NCBI GenBank assembly: GCA_003168375.1
Contig: PMSI01000001.1
Span: forward strand, 1,674,001-1,738,000
Direction of reading: 5' to 3'
DNA from: Vulcanimicrobiota bacterium
GTDB lineage: Bacteria; Vulcanimicrobiota; Vulcanimicrobiia; Vulcanimicrobiales; Vulcanimicrobiaceae
DNA length: 64,000 nucleotides
Shown here: positions 18,959-24,370 of the stretch, piece by piece
Layout of the letters: every line of letters starts with the position of its first letter
Numbering within the stretch: the stretch's first letter is position 1
Notes under the pieces: model-generated
Seen by the model: the letters and a program-made list of their open reading frames with translations, nothing else
What the model was told of the DNA's origin: nothing
Databases searched by the model: none
Translations under genes and position numbers: made by a program

Positions 18959-20338
18959 CTACGGGCACGTGCCGATGACGTAGTAGTTCGTCCCCGTCTT
19001 CTTGAGCGTGGTTTGGTAGAAGACGTTGTCGAGGCCCATGTTCTGGTTCGAGCCGTTGGCGAGCGCGTAGCCGAAGTTGTCGTGCGCGCGACCGGCTTGC
19101 ACGTGATACCAGTTGGCCGTGGTGTAGCAGACCGGCGGCGGGGTCGGCGTGGCCGTCGGGGTGGGTGTCGGCGTGGGGGTCGGCGTCGGCGTGCCGTGGC
19201 CCGTCGGCGTCGGGGTCGGCGTGGGCCCGCCGGTCGGCGTCGGGCTGGGGGTTGGCGTCGGCGTGCCGGTCGAGCCGGACTGGATGCGGTCGACCATCTT
19301 CTTGATCGCCGCCATCTGCGGACCGGTCTTCAGCGCGTAGGTCGAGGTCTCGTAGCCCCACCAGTCCCAGCACCCGTTCGGGTTGTTCGGGGTGCTGCTC
19401 GAGACTTGGTACGGATAGAGCACCAGGATGTTGTTCGTGTCGGCGTACTTGTTGAGGCCGGCTTCGGCGATGAACTTCGTCCCGATGTTCGCTTGCGTCT
19501 GCACGCAGCCGTCGAGGGCGACGATCAGCCGGCACTGCGTCCCGTTCGCGCAGTTCGCCGGCACGTACAGGTAGCCGTTGGTGTCGAGGTCGTTCGCGCC
19601 GCCGCCGTACGGCGTTTGGTCGAAGTTGATCAGCGTCCCGCCGAGCGTCCCGGTGTTGCGCGCGTTCACCGAGCCGTAGAAGTACGTCAGCCACGTGTTC
19701 TCGGAATCGTAGTTGCTGCAGTCGATCATGTACGGGCTGGCCGTCGTCCCGCATGCAACCTCGCCGTCGAGCGATTCCCAGCCGTGTCCCGACGCGAACG
19801 TGTTGTCGTACTTGGTCGAGACGCCGTAGTGCTGGTACTCCGTGTTGAGGTCGTTCATCGTCTTCTGTTCGACGGTGAAGTCCATCGTGCCGGACCACAG
19901 GTATGCTTTTTGACCGCTGAGATTGCTCTTGGGATCGATGGTGCCGGCGCTCGACTGCGCGTCGAGGTAGCTCTCCGATGCGGAAAGCGAGCTGGAGGTC
20001 GCGTATTGGCAGACGATCTGCGCGGTCGTGAGGCTGTCCTGCGCGCAGTAATACGGTCCGCCGGCGTACACCGCCGCGTAGTGGAACGTACCGGAGAACG
20101 CGACCTGCAGCTGCACCGCCATGAAGCCGCCCGACGAGATCCCGGTGACGGCGGTCTTCGTCTTGTCGACGTTGTACGCACCGAGGCTCGACAGACTGCG
20201 GACGGCGCGTTGCGCCCCGTCCGCGGCAAATCCCGGGGCCGGTGTGGAGACCACCCCCGATCCCGCGCAGCCGGCCGCGACGGCCCCCAAGAGCACGGCG
20301 AGTGCAGCCGTCCGAACGACCGGCGTGGGCAGCGACAT
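18959..20338 (-). CDS. Extracellular poly(3-hydroxyalkanoate) depolymerase lipoprotein
   Basis: A 459-residue enzyme predicted to hydrolyse short-chain polyhydroxyalkanoates. I chose ATG 20338 because GGGGAGAAG precedes it and the protein begins with a lipoprotein signal (VLLGAVAAGC, lipid-bearing Cys24). The alpha/beta-hydrolase part has the GISSGG elbow (Ser68) and segments YAAVYAGGPYYCAQ, YVPANCANGTQCRLIVALDGC and GCWDWWGYET, typical of type 2 catalytic-domain depolymerases. A Thr-Pro-repeat linker (about residues 352-400) leads to a short C-terminal domain (NWYHVQAGRAHDNFGYALANG) that probably binds polymer. Surface anchoring with a stalk-like linker would keep the enzyme on the cell. Confidence 0.85.
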   Translation of the reverse strand: MSLPTPVVRTAALAVLLGAVAAGCAGSGVVSTPAPGFAADGAQRAVRSLSSLGAYNVDKTKTAVTGISSGGFMAVQLQVAFSGTFHYAAVYAGGPYYCAQDSLTTAQIVCQYATSSSLSASESYLDAQSSAGTIDPKSNLSGQKAYLWSGTMDFTVEQKTMNDLNTEYQHYGVSTKYDNTFASGHGWESLDGEVACGTTASPYMIDCSNYDSENTWLTYFYGSVNARNTGTLGGTLINFDQTPYGGGANDLDTNGYLYVPANCANGTQCRLIVALDGCVQTQANIGTKFIAEAGLNKYADTNNILVLYPYQVSSSTPNNPNGCWDWWGYETSTYALKTGPQMAAIKKMVDRIQSGSTGTPTPTPSPTPTGGPTPTPTPTGHGTPTPTPTPTPTPTATPTPPPVCYTTANWYHVQAGRAHDNFGYALANGSNQNMGLDNVFYQTTLKKTGTNYYVIGTCP

Positions 20339-20429
20339 GAAAATCTTCTCCCCGGTGAAGCGAGCCCGTCTGAAGAAAATCTCCCTCGCGGGCGGGTTAT
20401 CCTGCGCCCGCCCGGTATCACCCCAAGCC

Positions 20430-20849
20430 GTGAAGCTCGCGCCCGGACTCGACGTTCGCCCCTCGCCGATCACCGGCAAGGGGTGTTTCGCCACGAAACT
20501 CTTCCCGAAGTCGCGGAAGATCGCGGAGTACGCGGGCGAGCGCATCGCGCGCGCCGAAGTCGCTAGGCGCACACGTACGCGCCGCCTGCGCATCCTGCGC
20601 ATCTGCTCCGTCGACTACTACTGGAGTCTCGACGGGTCACGCGGCGGCAACGGCACGCACTACGTCAACCACTCGTGCCGGCCGAACGCGTACATGCGAA
20701 CCACGCGCGGACACATTCTCTTCATGGCGCTGCGCGACATCCGGCCGGGCGAAGAGATCACCGTCGACTACGAGTTGACCCTGCACCCCAATACCAAACG
20801 CTGCCGCTGCAAAGCCCCGAACTGTCGCGGCACGATCAACAAGAGCTAG
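20430..20849 (+). CDS. SET-domain protein (lysine methyltransferase-like)
   Basis: A 139-residue compact SET domain. The sequence SPITGKGCFATKLFPKSRKIAEYAGERI starts the fold. NHSCRPNAYM forms the pseudoknot-linked substrate/AdoMet motif, GEEITVDYEL is the second motif, and a post-SET zinc cluster follows (C-R-C then C-R-G near the end). SET enzymes methylate lysines; bacterial ones act on ribosomal, histone-like or host proteins, and the target here is unknown. I chose GTG 20430, since the upstream ATG at 20337 would lie on top of the divergent depolymerase start. The next gene begins 10 bp downstream, so co-transcription is likely. Confidence 0.85.
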   Translation: MKLAPGLDVRPSPITGKGCFATKLFPKSRKIAEYAGERIARAEVARRTRTRRLRILRICSVDYYWSLDGSRGGNGTHYVNHSCRPNAYMRTTRGHILFMALRDIRPGEEITVDYELTLHPNTKRCRCKAPNCRGTINKS

Positions 20850-20859
20850 GTACCAAGTT

Positions 20860-21981
20860 ATGCACGACGTCTACATCAACGGATTCGGGGCATTCTTCCC
20901 CGGGCCGCCGGTCGGCAACGACGAGATGGAGACGTACCTGGGCCGCATTGGCGGCAAACCTTCACGATATCGGCCCATCGTGCTGCGCAACAACAAGATC
21001 AAGACGCGCCACTATGCGCTCGACGAGAACGGAGTCGCGCAGCATTCAAATGCGAGCATGGCCGCCGCCGCGATCTCGGCGGCGGTCGACTCGTCCGAGC
21101 TGCTGCTCCGCGACGTAACGTACCTCGCCACTGCGACGACCCTGGGCGACGTCCTCCTCCCGGGCCTCGCATCGCAGGTGCACGCGGAGCTGGATCTGGG
21201 GCCGATCGAGATCGCGAGCTTTCAGAGCGTGTGCACGAGCTCGCTCATGGCGCTCAAATCGGCGTACGCGCAAATCCGCATCGGCGAGCACCGTGCGGCG
21301 ACCGTCTCCGGCAGCGAGTTCGCCAGCCGCTATTTCCGGCCCGGCTTCTACGAGCATGCCGGTGACGGCGCGACCGCCGAACCCCCGTTCGAGGCGGAGT
21401 TCCTGCGGTTCACCCTCTCGGACGGCGCCGGCGCGGTGGTGCTCGAGCCGGCGCCGAACGCGCGGCATCGGTCGCTGAAGATCCACTGGATCGACATCCG
21501 GTCGTTCGCGGACCGGTTCTTGCCGAGCATGATCGCCGGCGGCGCGTACGACGGCGAGCGCTTGCGGTTCTGGGGCGACTACGGAAGTCCGGCGAGTGCG
21601 GCGCGCGCCGGCGCGCTGATGCTCACCCAGGACATCGCTCGGATGCGCTCGATGCTGCCGGTGTGGGTGTCACACTTCGTGGAGCTGGTCGAGCGCGGCC
21701 GCATCGTGATCGACGAGATCGATCACGTCTGCTGCCATTACTCCTCGCAGTCGTTGCGGGACGAGACCATGAAACTGCTCACCGCCGCCGGCGCGCTCAT
21801 CCCGCCAGAGAAGTGGTTCAGTAACCTGTCGACGCGCGGCAACGTCGGCGCCGCATCGATCTTCGTGCTGCTCGAGGAGCTGGTACGCGTGCGACCGCTG
21901 GAGAAGGGGCAGAAGATCTTGTGCAACGTACCCGAGAGCGGTCGCGCTCTGAACGGCTTGATGCTCCTGGAGGTCGCATGA
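20860..21981 (+). CDS. Beta-ketoacyl-ACP synthase III-like (thiolase-fold) enzyme
   Basis: A 373-residue condensing enzyme. The catalytic triad is visible: Cys125 in SFQSVCTSSLMAL, His293 in CCHYSSQSL and Asn328 in TRGNVGAASIF. GDGAGAVVLE and the N-terminal INGFGAFFPG also fit KAS III/OleA-type proteins. It is slightly longer than FabH (about 320 residues), with an insertion after GSEFASRYFRPGFYEHAGDG, hinting at an unusual acyl substrate. It probably condenses or transfers an acyl-thioester. Its stop overlaps the start of the diiron oxidase-like gene (ATGA). This is not the housekeeping fabH context, since no fab genes are nearby. Confidence 0.88.
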   Translation: MHDVYINGFGAFFPGPPVGNDEMETYLGRIGGKPSRYRPIVLRNNKIKTRHYALDENGVAQHSNASMAAAAISAAVDSSELLLRDVTYLATATTLGDVLLPGLASQVHAELDLGPIEIASFQSVCTSSLMALKSAYAQIRIGEHRAATVSGSEFASRYFRPGFYEHAGDGATAEPPFEAEFLRFTLSDGAGAVVLEPAPNARHRSLKIHWIDIRSFADRFLPSMIAGGAYDGERLRFWGDYGSPASAARAGALMLTQDIARMRSMLPVWVSHFVELVERGRIVIDEIDHVCCHYSSQSLRDETMKLLTAAGALIPPEKWFSNLSTRGNVGAASIFVLLEELVRVRPLEKGQKILCNVPESGRALNGLMLLEVA

Positions 21982-22664
21982 ACGGCACGGCTACGTCCCG
22001 GGCGGCGCAATCGGTCATGCGGCGCCTGCTCATGGTATGGGTCGACTTCGAGACCTCGCTCGACACCGCGCCGCTGATCGACAAGCTGCGGCGCGGGAAG
22101 TTCAGGCTCGACGACTACCGCACGCTCCTGCTCAACCACCGGCAGCAGGTGATCGAGGGATCGCGCTGGATCGCGCGGGCCGCGTCGAGCATCACCAACG
22201 AGTTCGCCGCCCAGCGCTCGGTTTTTCTCCAGCACGCGCTCACGGAACACCGGGACTACACGATGCTGGAGGCCGACTTCGTCTCGGTCGGCGGGGACCT
22301 CTCGCACATGCTCAGCTTCGAAAAAAACGTCGGGACCGAGGCACTGCACGCATTCATGTTCCAGCGGGCGACCGAGCCCAACCCGTTCGATCTGCTCGGG
22401 GCGATGTTCATCATCGAGGGCGTCGGCAACAAGAAGGCTGCGGTCTGGGGCCGGCTCATCGCGGAGCAGCTCGCGCTCGATGAACGCCAGGTCAGCTTTC
22501 TGCTGTACCATGGCGAAAACGACGCCGGGCATCTGGCAGGGTTCGAGGAAACGCTCGGCTCGGGCATCCTCGAACTGCCCGGGATGGCCGACCGCATCGT
22601 CAAGACGAGCGCCGTCGTCGCACGGCTCTACCGTCTGCAGCTCGAGGAGCTGACGCCGGCATGA
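21978..22664 (+). CDS. Heme-oxygenase-fold iron-containing redox enzyme
   Basis: A 228-residue all-helical protein of the TenA/PqqC/HDO superfamily. Likely metal ligands are Glu60 (HRQQVIEGSRW), Glu90/His91 (LTEHRDYTMLEADF), the Glu of GAMFIIEGVGNKKA, and the HxxxDxxH set at 178-185 (YHGENDAGHL). These match the six-ligand pattern of heme-oxygenase-like diiron oxidases such as UndA and BesC, which use O2 on fatty or amino acids. It is coupled by 4-bp overlaps to both the KAS III-like and the downstream unknown gene. A reaction on the acyl product of the synthase is the simplest inference. Confidence 0.8.
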   Translation: MNGTATSRAAQSVMRRLLMVWVDFETSLDTAPLIDKLRRGKFRLDDYRTLLLNHRQQVIEGSRWIARAASSITNEFAAQRSVFLQHALTEHRDYTMLEADFVSVGGDLSHMLSFEKNVGTEALHAFMFQRATEPNPFDLLGAMFIIEGVGNKKAAVWGRLIAEQLALDERQVSFLLYHGENDAGHLAGFEETLGSGILELPGMADRIVKTSAVVARLYRLQLEELTPA

Positions 22665-23551
22665 CGCCGTACGACCTCGCCACGCACGACTACTCGAACC
22701 CCGATCCGTGGACGGCCCTCGCGCTCGATCACAGCACGTTGTTCGATCCGTCCGCCAAGGCGGCGCTGATGCGCAACAACCGAACGTGGTCGCGGCGGTT
22801 TCTGCTGCCGGGCGTTCGGGTCGTCGCGCGTTTGGCCGTCGCGCTGACGCAGGTCGTGCGGATCTTCGTTCCGCACTGGTTCGCTGCGCCCAAGCTGCTG
22901 CACCGATCGATCGCCTGGGGCATGGCAACCTTCGTGAACCCCGATGCCAATTACCTCATCCTGCGGCACTTCAGCATCGGAACGCAGATGCTGCGCTTCC
23001 TGAGCGACAATATCGGCGGCCTCGAGATGAAGTCGGTTCCGCTCCAGCCGCGGACGATCGACGCGCTCGTCGACAACGTGTTCGTCCAGCACGATCTCAA
23101 CATCTACAACTTCATCATCCAGGTGAACGCGCAGCTCAACGCGCAGGGCCGCGCGATCGCTGCGCGGCCGCGCAGTGAGATGGACTTCAGTGCGATCGAG
23201 GACTTCGATTCGACGCTCGGCGCGATGCCGTGCCGCTGGCACAACATCCTGGACATCCAAAGCGCTATCGAGCTCTACACGCCGCTCTACAGCCTGCTGC
23301 TGACGCGCGCGGATTTCAACCGCGCGAGCGATTCGCTCCAGCTCGACGAGACGATCGCGATCTACGTCTCGCGCATCTTCGGCAACATCGCGCCGCTCGG
23401 GCTGGTGAACAACCGGCACCCGGTGGTGCCGTTCTCGACGGTCCAAGCCGGGTTCCGGCTGATGTTGCACGGCATCGATGCCGAGCAGCTCTACGGCTTC
23501 GTCAAGACCATGCGCGACGCGCCTGAAACGGTCGGGCTGGGAATGTCCTAG
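22661..23551 (+). CDS. Unrecognised partner of the KAS III/diiron oxidase operon
   Basis: A 296-residue protein of unknown fold, possibly a DUF6999-type family (recalled, not verified). It has mostly helical sequence with aromatic-rich stretches (WTALALDHSTLFDP, WSRRFLLPGVRVVARLAVALTQVVRIFVPHWF, ANYLILRHFSIGTQMLRFLSDNIGG, QHDLNIYNFIIQVNAQL). His residues at the FSIGTQ region and VFVQHDLN could be metal or substrate ligands. One segment (about 45-75) is hydrophobic enough to lie at a membrane. It starts inside the stop of the diiron oxidase gene. The strict coupling of three genes suggests a shared pathway or complex. Confidence 0.75.
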   Translation: MTPYDLATHDYSNPDPWTALALDHSTLFDPSAKAALMRNNRTWSRRFLLPGVRVVARLAVALTQVVRIFVPHWFAAPKLLHRSIAWGMATFVNPDANYLILRHFSIGTQMLRFLSDNIGGLEMKSVPLQPRTIDALVDNVFVQHDLNIYNFIIQVNAQLNAQGRAIAARPRSEMDFSAIEDFDSTLGAMPCRWHNILDIQSAIELYTPLYSLLLTRADFNRASDSLQLDETIAIYVSRIFGNIAPLGLVNNRHPVVPFSTVQAGFRLMLHGIDAEQLYGFVKTMRDAPETVGLGMS

Positions 23552-23557
23552 AGCGGC

Positions 23558-24370
23558 TCAGAGACTCGCGACGATCCCTTCGACCAGACGCGCGACGTTC
23601 TCCGAGCTGCTCGCTGCGGCTGCGAGGACTTCTTCGTGCGACGTCGCTTCGCCGGTGCCGTGGACGTTGGTGATCAGCGAGACGCCGGCGACCTCGCAGC
23701 CGAGCGCGCGCGCGGCGATCGTCTCGAGCACGGTCGACATCCCGACCGCGTCGGCACCGATCGTGCGCAGGTAGCGCGCTTCGGCGGGCGTCTCGTACGT
23801 CGGCCCGACGAGCCCCGCGTAGACGCCCTCGCGCAGTGTGAAGGCGTGCTCCGCCGCGACGCGGCGTGCCGACTCGCGCAGGTGCGGAGCGTACGCATCG
23901 ACCATGTCGACGAACCGCGCGGCCTGCCCGGGCAGCAGTTCCGTGCCGATCAGCGGGCTCGTCCCGGTGAGGTTGAGCTGGTCCGCGATCAGCATCAGGT
24001 CGCCCGCGCGGTAGTCCGGGTTCAGGCCGCCGGCCGCGTTCGTGAGCACGAACGTTTTCGCTCCGGCATGCGCCGCTGCGAGCACGGGATAGATCACCTC
24101 GCCGGCGTGGCGGCCTTCGTAGAGGTGGAAGCGGCCGCTGAACGCGACGACGCGCCGTCCCTGCAGCATCCCGACGTGCGCCTCGCCGGCATGTCCGGCG
24201 ACGCTCGGCAGCGGCATCCCAGCGATCTTCTTGTACGGGATCGTCGCGCCATCGATGCGCTCGCGCAGCACCGCGCCGAAACCCGAGCCGAGCACGATCG
24301 CGCACTCGATCTCGCCGCCGGCTTTCTCGCGCAGGGTGTCCGCGGCGCGTTGGAGACGTTTCTGTTTCAT
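23558..24370 (-). CDS. Purine nucleoside phosphorylase
   Basis: A 270-residue trimeric-type PNP that splits purine (deoxy)nucleosides with phosphate. Motifs are IVLGSGFGAVL (phosphate site), SGRFHLYEGR, NAAGGLNPDYRAGDLM, GLVGPTYETPAEARYL (base site) and GADAVGMSTVLETIAA, followed by LITNVHG, where the Asn selects guanine/hypoxanthine. It is the final gene of the rqcP-to-pnp minus-strand run and overlaps the gpmI stop by 4 bp. It makes sugar 1-phosphates that can feed lower glycolysis through phosphopentomutase and aldolase. Confidence 0.93.
   Translation of the reverse strand: MKQKRLQRAADTLREKAGGEIECAIVLGSGFGAVLRERIDGATIPYKKIAGMPLPSVAGHAGEAHVGMLQGRRVVAFSGRFHLYEGRHAGEVIYPVLAAAHAGAKTFVLTNAAGGLNPDYRAGDLMLIADQLNLTGTSPLIGTELLPGQAARFVDMVDAYAPHLRESARRVAAEHAFTLREGVYAGLVGPTYETPAEARYLRTIGADAVGMSTVLETIAARALGCEVAGVSLITNVHGTGEATSHEEVLAAAASSSENVARLVEGIVASL

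Follow-up and report, generated by a model that had tools for sequence, protein, structure and literature searches.

A ketosynthase, dimetal oxidase, and DUF6999 cassette as a putative transferable lipid-biosynthesis module

Three overlapping genes encoding a ketosynthase (KAS), a heme-oxygenase-like dimetal oxidase (HDO), and a DUF6999 protein lie together in the window, the whole stretch of 64,000 nucleotides that was analyzed (positions 1674001 to 1738000 of the source contig, from a genome of 4.43 Mb). This trio probably constitutes a module for lipid biosynthesis that depends on O2, is complete in itself, and can be passed on horizontally; it would use the acyl-ACP (or acyl-CoA) of its host. 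The gene coordinates (Table 1) confirm the arrangement described in the earlier note, with all three genes on the plus strand and a 4-base ATGA overlap shared by genes 1 and 2 as well as by genes 2 and 3. Literature searches for DUF6999, for DarB with this oxidase, and for an HDO with a ketosynthase returned no description of the trio, and the pathway seems to have been described by nobody so far.

Table 1. Coordinates of the trio and adjoining features in the window
Feature	Position	Strand	Remarks
Gene 1, ketosynthase (KAS III / StlD-DarB superfamily)	20860-21981	+	373 aa; triad C125-H293-N328
Gene 2, heme-oxygenase-like dimetal oxidase (HDO)	21978-22664	+	228 aa; PF14518 weak, AlphaFold fold
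Gene 3, DUF6999 protein	22661-23551	+	296 aa; PF22523
Inserted cassette, trio only	20850-23557	+	empty site in closest relative L105
SET-domain gene, resident	20424-20849	+	PF00856 7.8e-20; start codon provisional
Purine nucleoside phosphorylase-like gene, resident right flank	23558-24370	-	92% identical in L105

Conservation and acquisition of the three-gene unit

An HDO-seeded scan of a species-representative collection yielded 135 relatives, the best 80 of which were combined with a copy from a Pseudoalteromonas plasmid into a set of 81 loci; residue alignments cover 37 KAS, 66 HDO, and 64 DUF6999 proteins. Within this set of the best 80 relatives and the plasmid copy, the KAS gene lies directly upstream of the HDO gene in all 81 loci. 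The DUF6999 gene follows downstream on the same strand in 78 of them; in the three exceptions (L026, L027, and L050), the contig breaks off a short way past the HDO gene. The same 81 loci are distributed over the Alpha- and Gammaproteobacteria, Myxococcota, Acidobacteriota, Chlorobiota, Actinomycetota, and the Poseidoniales archaea. The conserved order in distant genomes, proposed as a test in the earlier note, is thus found across several phyla, in Bacteria as well as in Archaea, and conservation across 81 loci rules out chance as an explanation of the trio. The findings listed there as damaging to a common pathway are absent: most metal ligands are kept, and DUF6999 is no known unrelated family. 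KAS and HDO form a single open frame in nine loci of the set, with linkers of 5 to 39 residues. These fusions come from six lineages (Corallococcus, Kiloniellales, Chlorobiales, Acidobacteria, a deltaproteobacterium, and Longispora) and are strong evidence of the two proteins working together. Between the three proteins, pairwise distances show correlations of r = 0.86 to 0.91; joint inheritance would lead to such values, but so would common descent, which they partly reflect. Large clusters of antisense open reading frames were discarded as GC-rich shadow frames. A role in antiphage defense was dropped, as the PADLOC models match none of the three proteins at an E value of ≤0.1.

The closest relative, L105, shows an empty site in which the stop of the SET-domain gene stands directly against the end of the phosphorylase gene. 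Most flanking proteins are 92 to 97% identical between the window and L105 (93% for the SET protein). The alignment of the two genomes breaks at the SET stop and picks up again inside the phosphorylase end, which gives an insertion of ∼2.7 kb with an exact left edge at the SET stop codon and a right edge somewhere from 23552 to about 23590. Between these two resident genes, the inserted cassette contains the trio only. Of 149 genomes of the phylum, a single one has DUF6999, and the KAS branches within a clade of alphaproteobacterial sequences (15 rows; support of 100/98). Together with the empty site, these observations indicate that the trio most likely arrived in one piece from an alphaproteobacterial donor, and a transfer of this kind suggests that the three genes suffice for whatever is selected. 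The third-codon-position G+C content of the trio equals that of its neighbors. A possible alternative, loss of the trio from all relatives, is far less economical than a gain, and contamination of the genome is unlikely given the megabase-sized contig and the flanks syntenic with those of relatives. Among plasmids, a single record carries DUF6999, and none was found in viral contigs.

The SET stop and the ATG of the KAS gene are separated by 10 bp, and the SET gene may supply transcription to the trio. It was rejected as a further member because it stands beside the trio in no other locus of the set (best 80 of 135 relatives and the plasmid copy). The SET protein itself is compact with a Cys-rich tail, and its gene lies beside the phosphorylase gene in L105 too; its sole NCBIfam match is a Dot/Icm effector model, far under the cutoff. 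The minus-strand gene at 18959-20545 encodes a probably secreted, depolymerase/esterase-like protein with a long Thr-Pro repeat linker, whose match in L105 is split over about 7.3 kb.

The ketosynthase and the dimetal oxidase

The KAS matches Pfam ACP_syn_III_C (9e-10), and its best NCBIfam match is the StlD/DarB model NF005293 with 335.5 bits, below the cutoff of 450. The DarB model NF053539 gives 294.2 bits and its cutoff of 550 is likewise not reached. Eight KAS relatives from other trios score 289 to 401 bits against NF005293, all below 450, and the DarB cutoff is not reached by any trio member tested either; a Prevotella KAS from outside the trio passes this cutoff with 492 bits. The best PDB match is StlD (5gk0; 1e-63), with whose catalytic triad Cys125, His293, and Asn328 align. 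This triad, already recognized in the earlier note, is invariant in all 37 aligned homologues. The StlD/DarB insertion (W210, S215, A217, M224, G227, and W238) is kept together with R183, these residues being invariant or nearly so across the 37 proteins. Judged from its sequence, the enzyme is related to, yet outside, the curated StlD/DarB family, and, given the scores below both cutoffs, its product may be of another type. KAS III enzymes first bind an acyl group to the Cys residue and then condense it with a second thioester. The Cys-His-Asn triad is common to all of them and does not by itself fix the chemistry.

StlD/DarB enzymes convert two fatty-acid-derived chains into cyclohexanediones, according to Fuchs et al. 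2013 as cited in PMC3949708. They represent both the nearest solved structure and the nearest curated family, and the trio KAS has their triad, their length, and their internal insertion. Where the known clusters rely on the aromatase DarA (PMC3949708), the trio has the HDO as the oxidizing partner. The inserted cassette carries neither DarA nor an acyl carrier protein (ACP), the latter being found far away in the same genome. Related ketosynthases also occur in other settings. A Streptomyces plasmid cluster (L088:9673-18101) contains a KAS near the trio clade without HDO or DUF6999 and instead holds ACPs, FabF, a P450, an FAD enzyme, and an SCP2 protein. On Bacteroidales plasmids (L089:9355-11125 and L090:7409-9134), a StlD/DarB-type KAS lies directly 3' of a TetR-like or helix-turn-helix regulator without obvious pathway genes alongside, and is perhaps a self-regulated signal maker.

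The second protein reaches 27.1 bits against PF14518, with a gathering cutoff of 28.9, and 61 of 64 relatives match this family at an E value of ≤0.01. Its AlphaFold model (pLDDT of 95.5) shows a seven-helix heme-oxygenase fold, the closest PDB structures being 3dde and the dimetal oxidase CtCADD (TM of 0.80 to 0.85), with UndA low in the fold search at a TM of 0.63. Residues E60, H86, E90, D93, E147, H178, D182, and H185 are invariant in all 66 aligned proteins, and E90, D93, E147, H178, D182, and H185 are the predicted metal ligands. The motif H178xxxD182xxH185 as well as E60 and E90 had been named in the earlier note and are borne out by this invariance. His91, there paired with E90 as a ligand, has to be replaced by position 93, an Asp residue in all 66 proteins (position 91 is His in 64), and the invariant helix ligand E147 had been overlooked.

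In the profile alignment, E90 corresponds to Glu86 and D93 to His89 of MboA, in a numbering that takes the PDB construct to be shifted by 25 relative to the paper, which is the analyst's reading. The MboA match is weak (E value of about 0.1); D93 also lines up with a His residue in the alignment with 3dde (8e-11). His89 is one of the three ligand histidines of MboA and is partly displaced by a neighboring Asp residue (PMC13185094). The HDO of the trio therefore deviates from the canonical set of three histidines and three carboxylates, one His position being Asp93 throughout the 66 proteins. H86, located one turn earlier, and E60, both invariant, might replace the missing ligand. Known HDOs vary in their ligand sets (PMC13108848), so Asp93 lowers the case for a canonical HDO and not that for an HDO-like enzyme. 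With O2 and two metals, HDOs desaturate, oxygenate, or cleave C-C bonds, their substrates being mostly fatty or amino acids (PMC13108848); given the altered ligand set, the reaction of the trio enzyme cannot be read from its relatives. The fold and the helix ligands E90, E147, and HxxxDxxH are shared with the superfamily members MboA, UndA, CADD, and SznF, from which the trio HDO differs in Asp93 in place of the canonical His and in its occasional fusion to a ketosynthase.

The DUF6999 protein and neighboring genes

The third protein, which the earlier note had left unrecognized, is a clear member of Pfam DUF6999 (PF22523), with an E value of 1.9e-106 and 355.6 bits against a gathering cutoff of 27 over positions 1 to 274 of 275. 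The family has no assigned function, and no paper in the literature searched mentions it. Residues R45, R102, H103, N117, H144, D145, D198, D229, H270, and E275 are invariant in 64 of 64 proteins. Comparison of the all-alpha AlphaFold model (pLDDT of 92.9) with the PDB returned only unrelated helical proteins both by Foldseek (best E value of 0.57) and by VIA-align (best Z of 3.4), which does not by itself prove a new fold. The DUF6999 profile has no match among PDB sequences. A reading of H103...H144-D145...D198 as an HD domain was dropped, as no such structure appears among the matches. Of 76 proteins, 56 have a hydrophobic helix around residues 43 to 69 above the usual threshold, and the DUF6999 protein is thus probably membrane associated.

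A His-rich membrane protein of 186 to 200 residues adjoins the trio in 37 loci of the 81-locus set (best 80 of 135 relatives and the plasmid copy), which are exactly the loci of one fully supported DUF6999 clade. Its sequence is rich in invariant His, Glu, and Asp residues and has four to five hydrophobic segments, and sequence-family searches with it gave chance-level matches only. An actinobacterial mosaic (L023:1198-4394) combines KAS and HDO of the alphaproteobacterial clade with a DUF6999 protein and a His-rich membrane protein of the gamma/archaeal clade, the membrane-protein gene sitting between the HDO and DUF6999 genes and overlapping the HDO stop. KAS-HDO and DUF6999 plus the membrane protein thereby behave as two swappable halves.

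Fatty acid desaturase genes adjoin the trio in the archaea (after the trio), in a Rhodospirillales metagenome-assembled genome (MAG), and in Corallococcus, where the desaturase occupies the slot held elsewhere by the His-rich membrane protein. Several Alphaproteobacteria carry an acyl-[ACP]-phospholipid O-acyltransferase (NF005291; 1602 bits) next to the trio, and several have alpha/beta hydrolase and DUF2339 proteins beside it. These neighbors point to membrane lipids, with acyl-ACP as the likely source. The earlier expectation of a carrier supplied from outside the locus agrees with both the distant ACP gene of this genome and the acyltransferase adjoining the trio in some relatives. At L017:11576-12889, a cytochrome P450 gene overlaps the DUF6999 end, placing another oxidase in the slot beside the trio.

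Proposed pathway and alternative explanations

A condensation of two chains followed by oxidation through the HDO is the probable course of the pathway. By analogy with its family, the KAS would join two fatty-acid-derived thioesters in a Cys-based Claisen condensation, most likely to a product of the StlD/DarB type, a 2,5-dialkyl-cyclohexane-1,3-dione or a related diketone. A product of the cyclohexanedione/resorcinol type is the leading guess, albeit a tentative one. The fusions back the partnership of the two enzymes and suggest the KAS product as the substrate of the HDO; it would be handed over directly and oxidized via the dimetal site and O2, perhaps in the role that DarA plays in dialkylresorcinol pathways. 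The DUF6999 protein, probably membrane associated and with an invariant His/Asp/Glu/Arg set, would then perform or enable the final step at the membrane; the His-rich protein of about four membrane helices would take part in this within one large clade. The earlier reading of the trio as one pathway is partly supported. Gene order and fusions speak strongly for it, a terminal alkene or nitro compound as the product stays conjectural, its assignment of one ligand was mistaken, and its third protein now has a DUF name.

The folds of the first two enzymes would also suit a hydrocarbon route, in which an OleA-like KAS condenses two chains head to head to a beta-keto acid and an UndA-like HDO decarboxylates it oxidatively, with an olefin or an unsaturated ketone as the outcome. 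UndA, whose substrates are fatty acids (review PMC13108848), does appear in the fold search, although low. The likeness to OleA extends to the KAS III-type enzyme and a possible two-chain condensation, but the KAS is closer to StlD/DarB in sequence, the cassette lacks genes for the partners OleB, OleC, and OleD, and the HDO has Asp in place of a ligand His, so that this route is considered unlikely. The desaturase genes beside the trio in archaea, Corallococcus, and the Rhodospirillales MAG, and the alphaproteobacterial acyl-ACP-phospholipid acyltransferase, are also what a tailoring of single chains would predict. Here, a FabH-like KAS would prime or extend one acyl chain, which the HDO and the membrane oxidases desaturate or hydroxylate for incorporation into phospholipid. 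The position of the KAS far from FabH in the tree and its retained StlD/DarB insertion make this explanation rather doubtful. The Acinetobacter desiccation factor DtpC is an HDO-domain protein that guards against oxidative stress (PMC13232832), and a similar protective function of the trio HDO, with its neighbors merely incidental, is highly improbable in view of the invariant linkage to a ketosynthase in the 81-locus set and the existing fusions.

Two-chain condensation with subsequent oxidation is therefore the preferred reading. A mobile, order-conserved unit of three genes that needs no other genes close by is an accessible target, and a clone of 2.7 kb could bring a new lipid to light. 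Conceivably, though at somewhat less than an even chance, the trio makes an undescribed class of oxidized membrane lipid or lipid signal in many bacterial phyla and the Poseidoniales archaea, by means of a KAS-HDO pair with an Asp-for-His dimetal site, a DUF6999 enzyme of new fold, and a new His-rich membrane oxidase family. If true, this would provide a function for DUF6999 and for the unnamed His-rich membrane family, and the HDO superfamily would gain a ketosynthase-coupled member with a changed ligand. It would also offer a possible explanation of an O2-dependent lipid in abundant ocean archaea.
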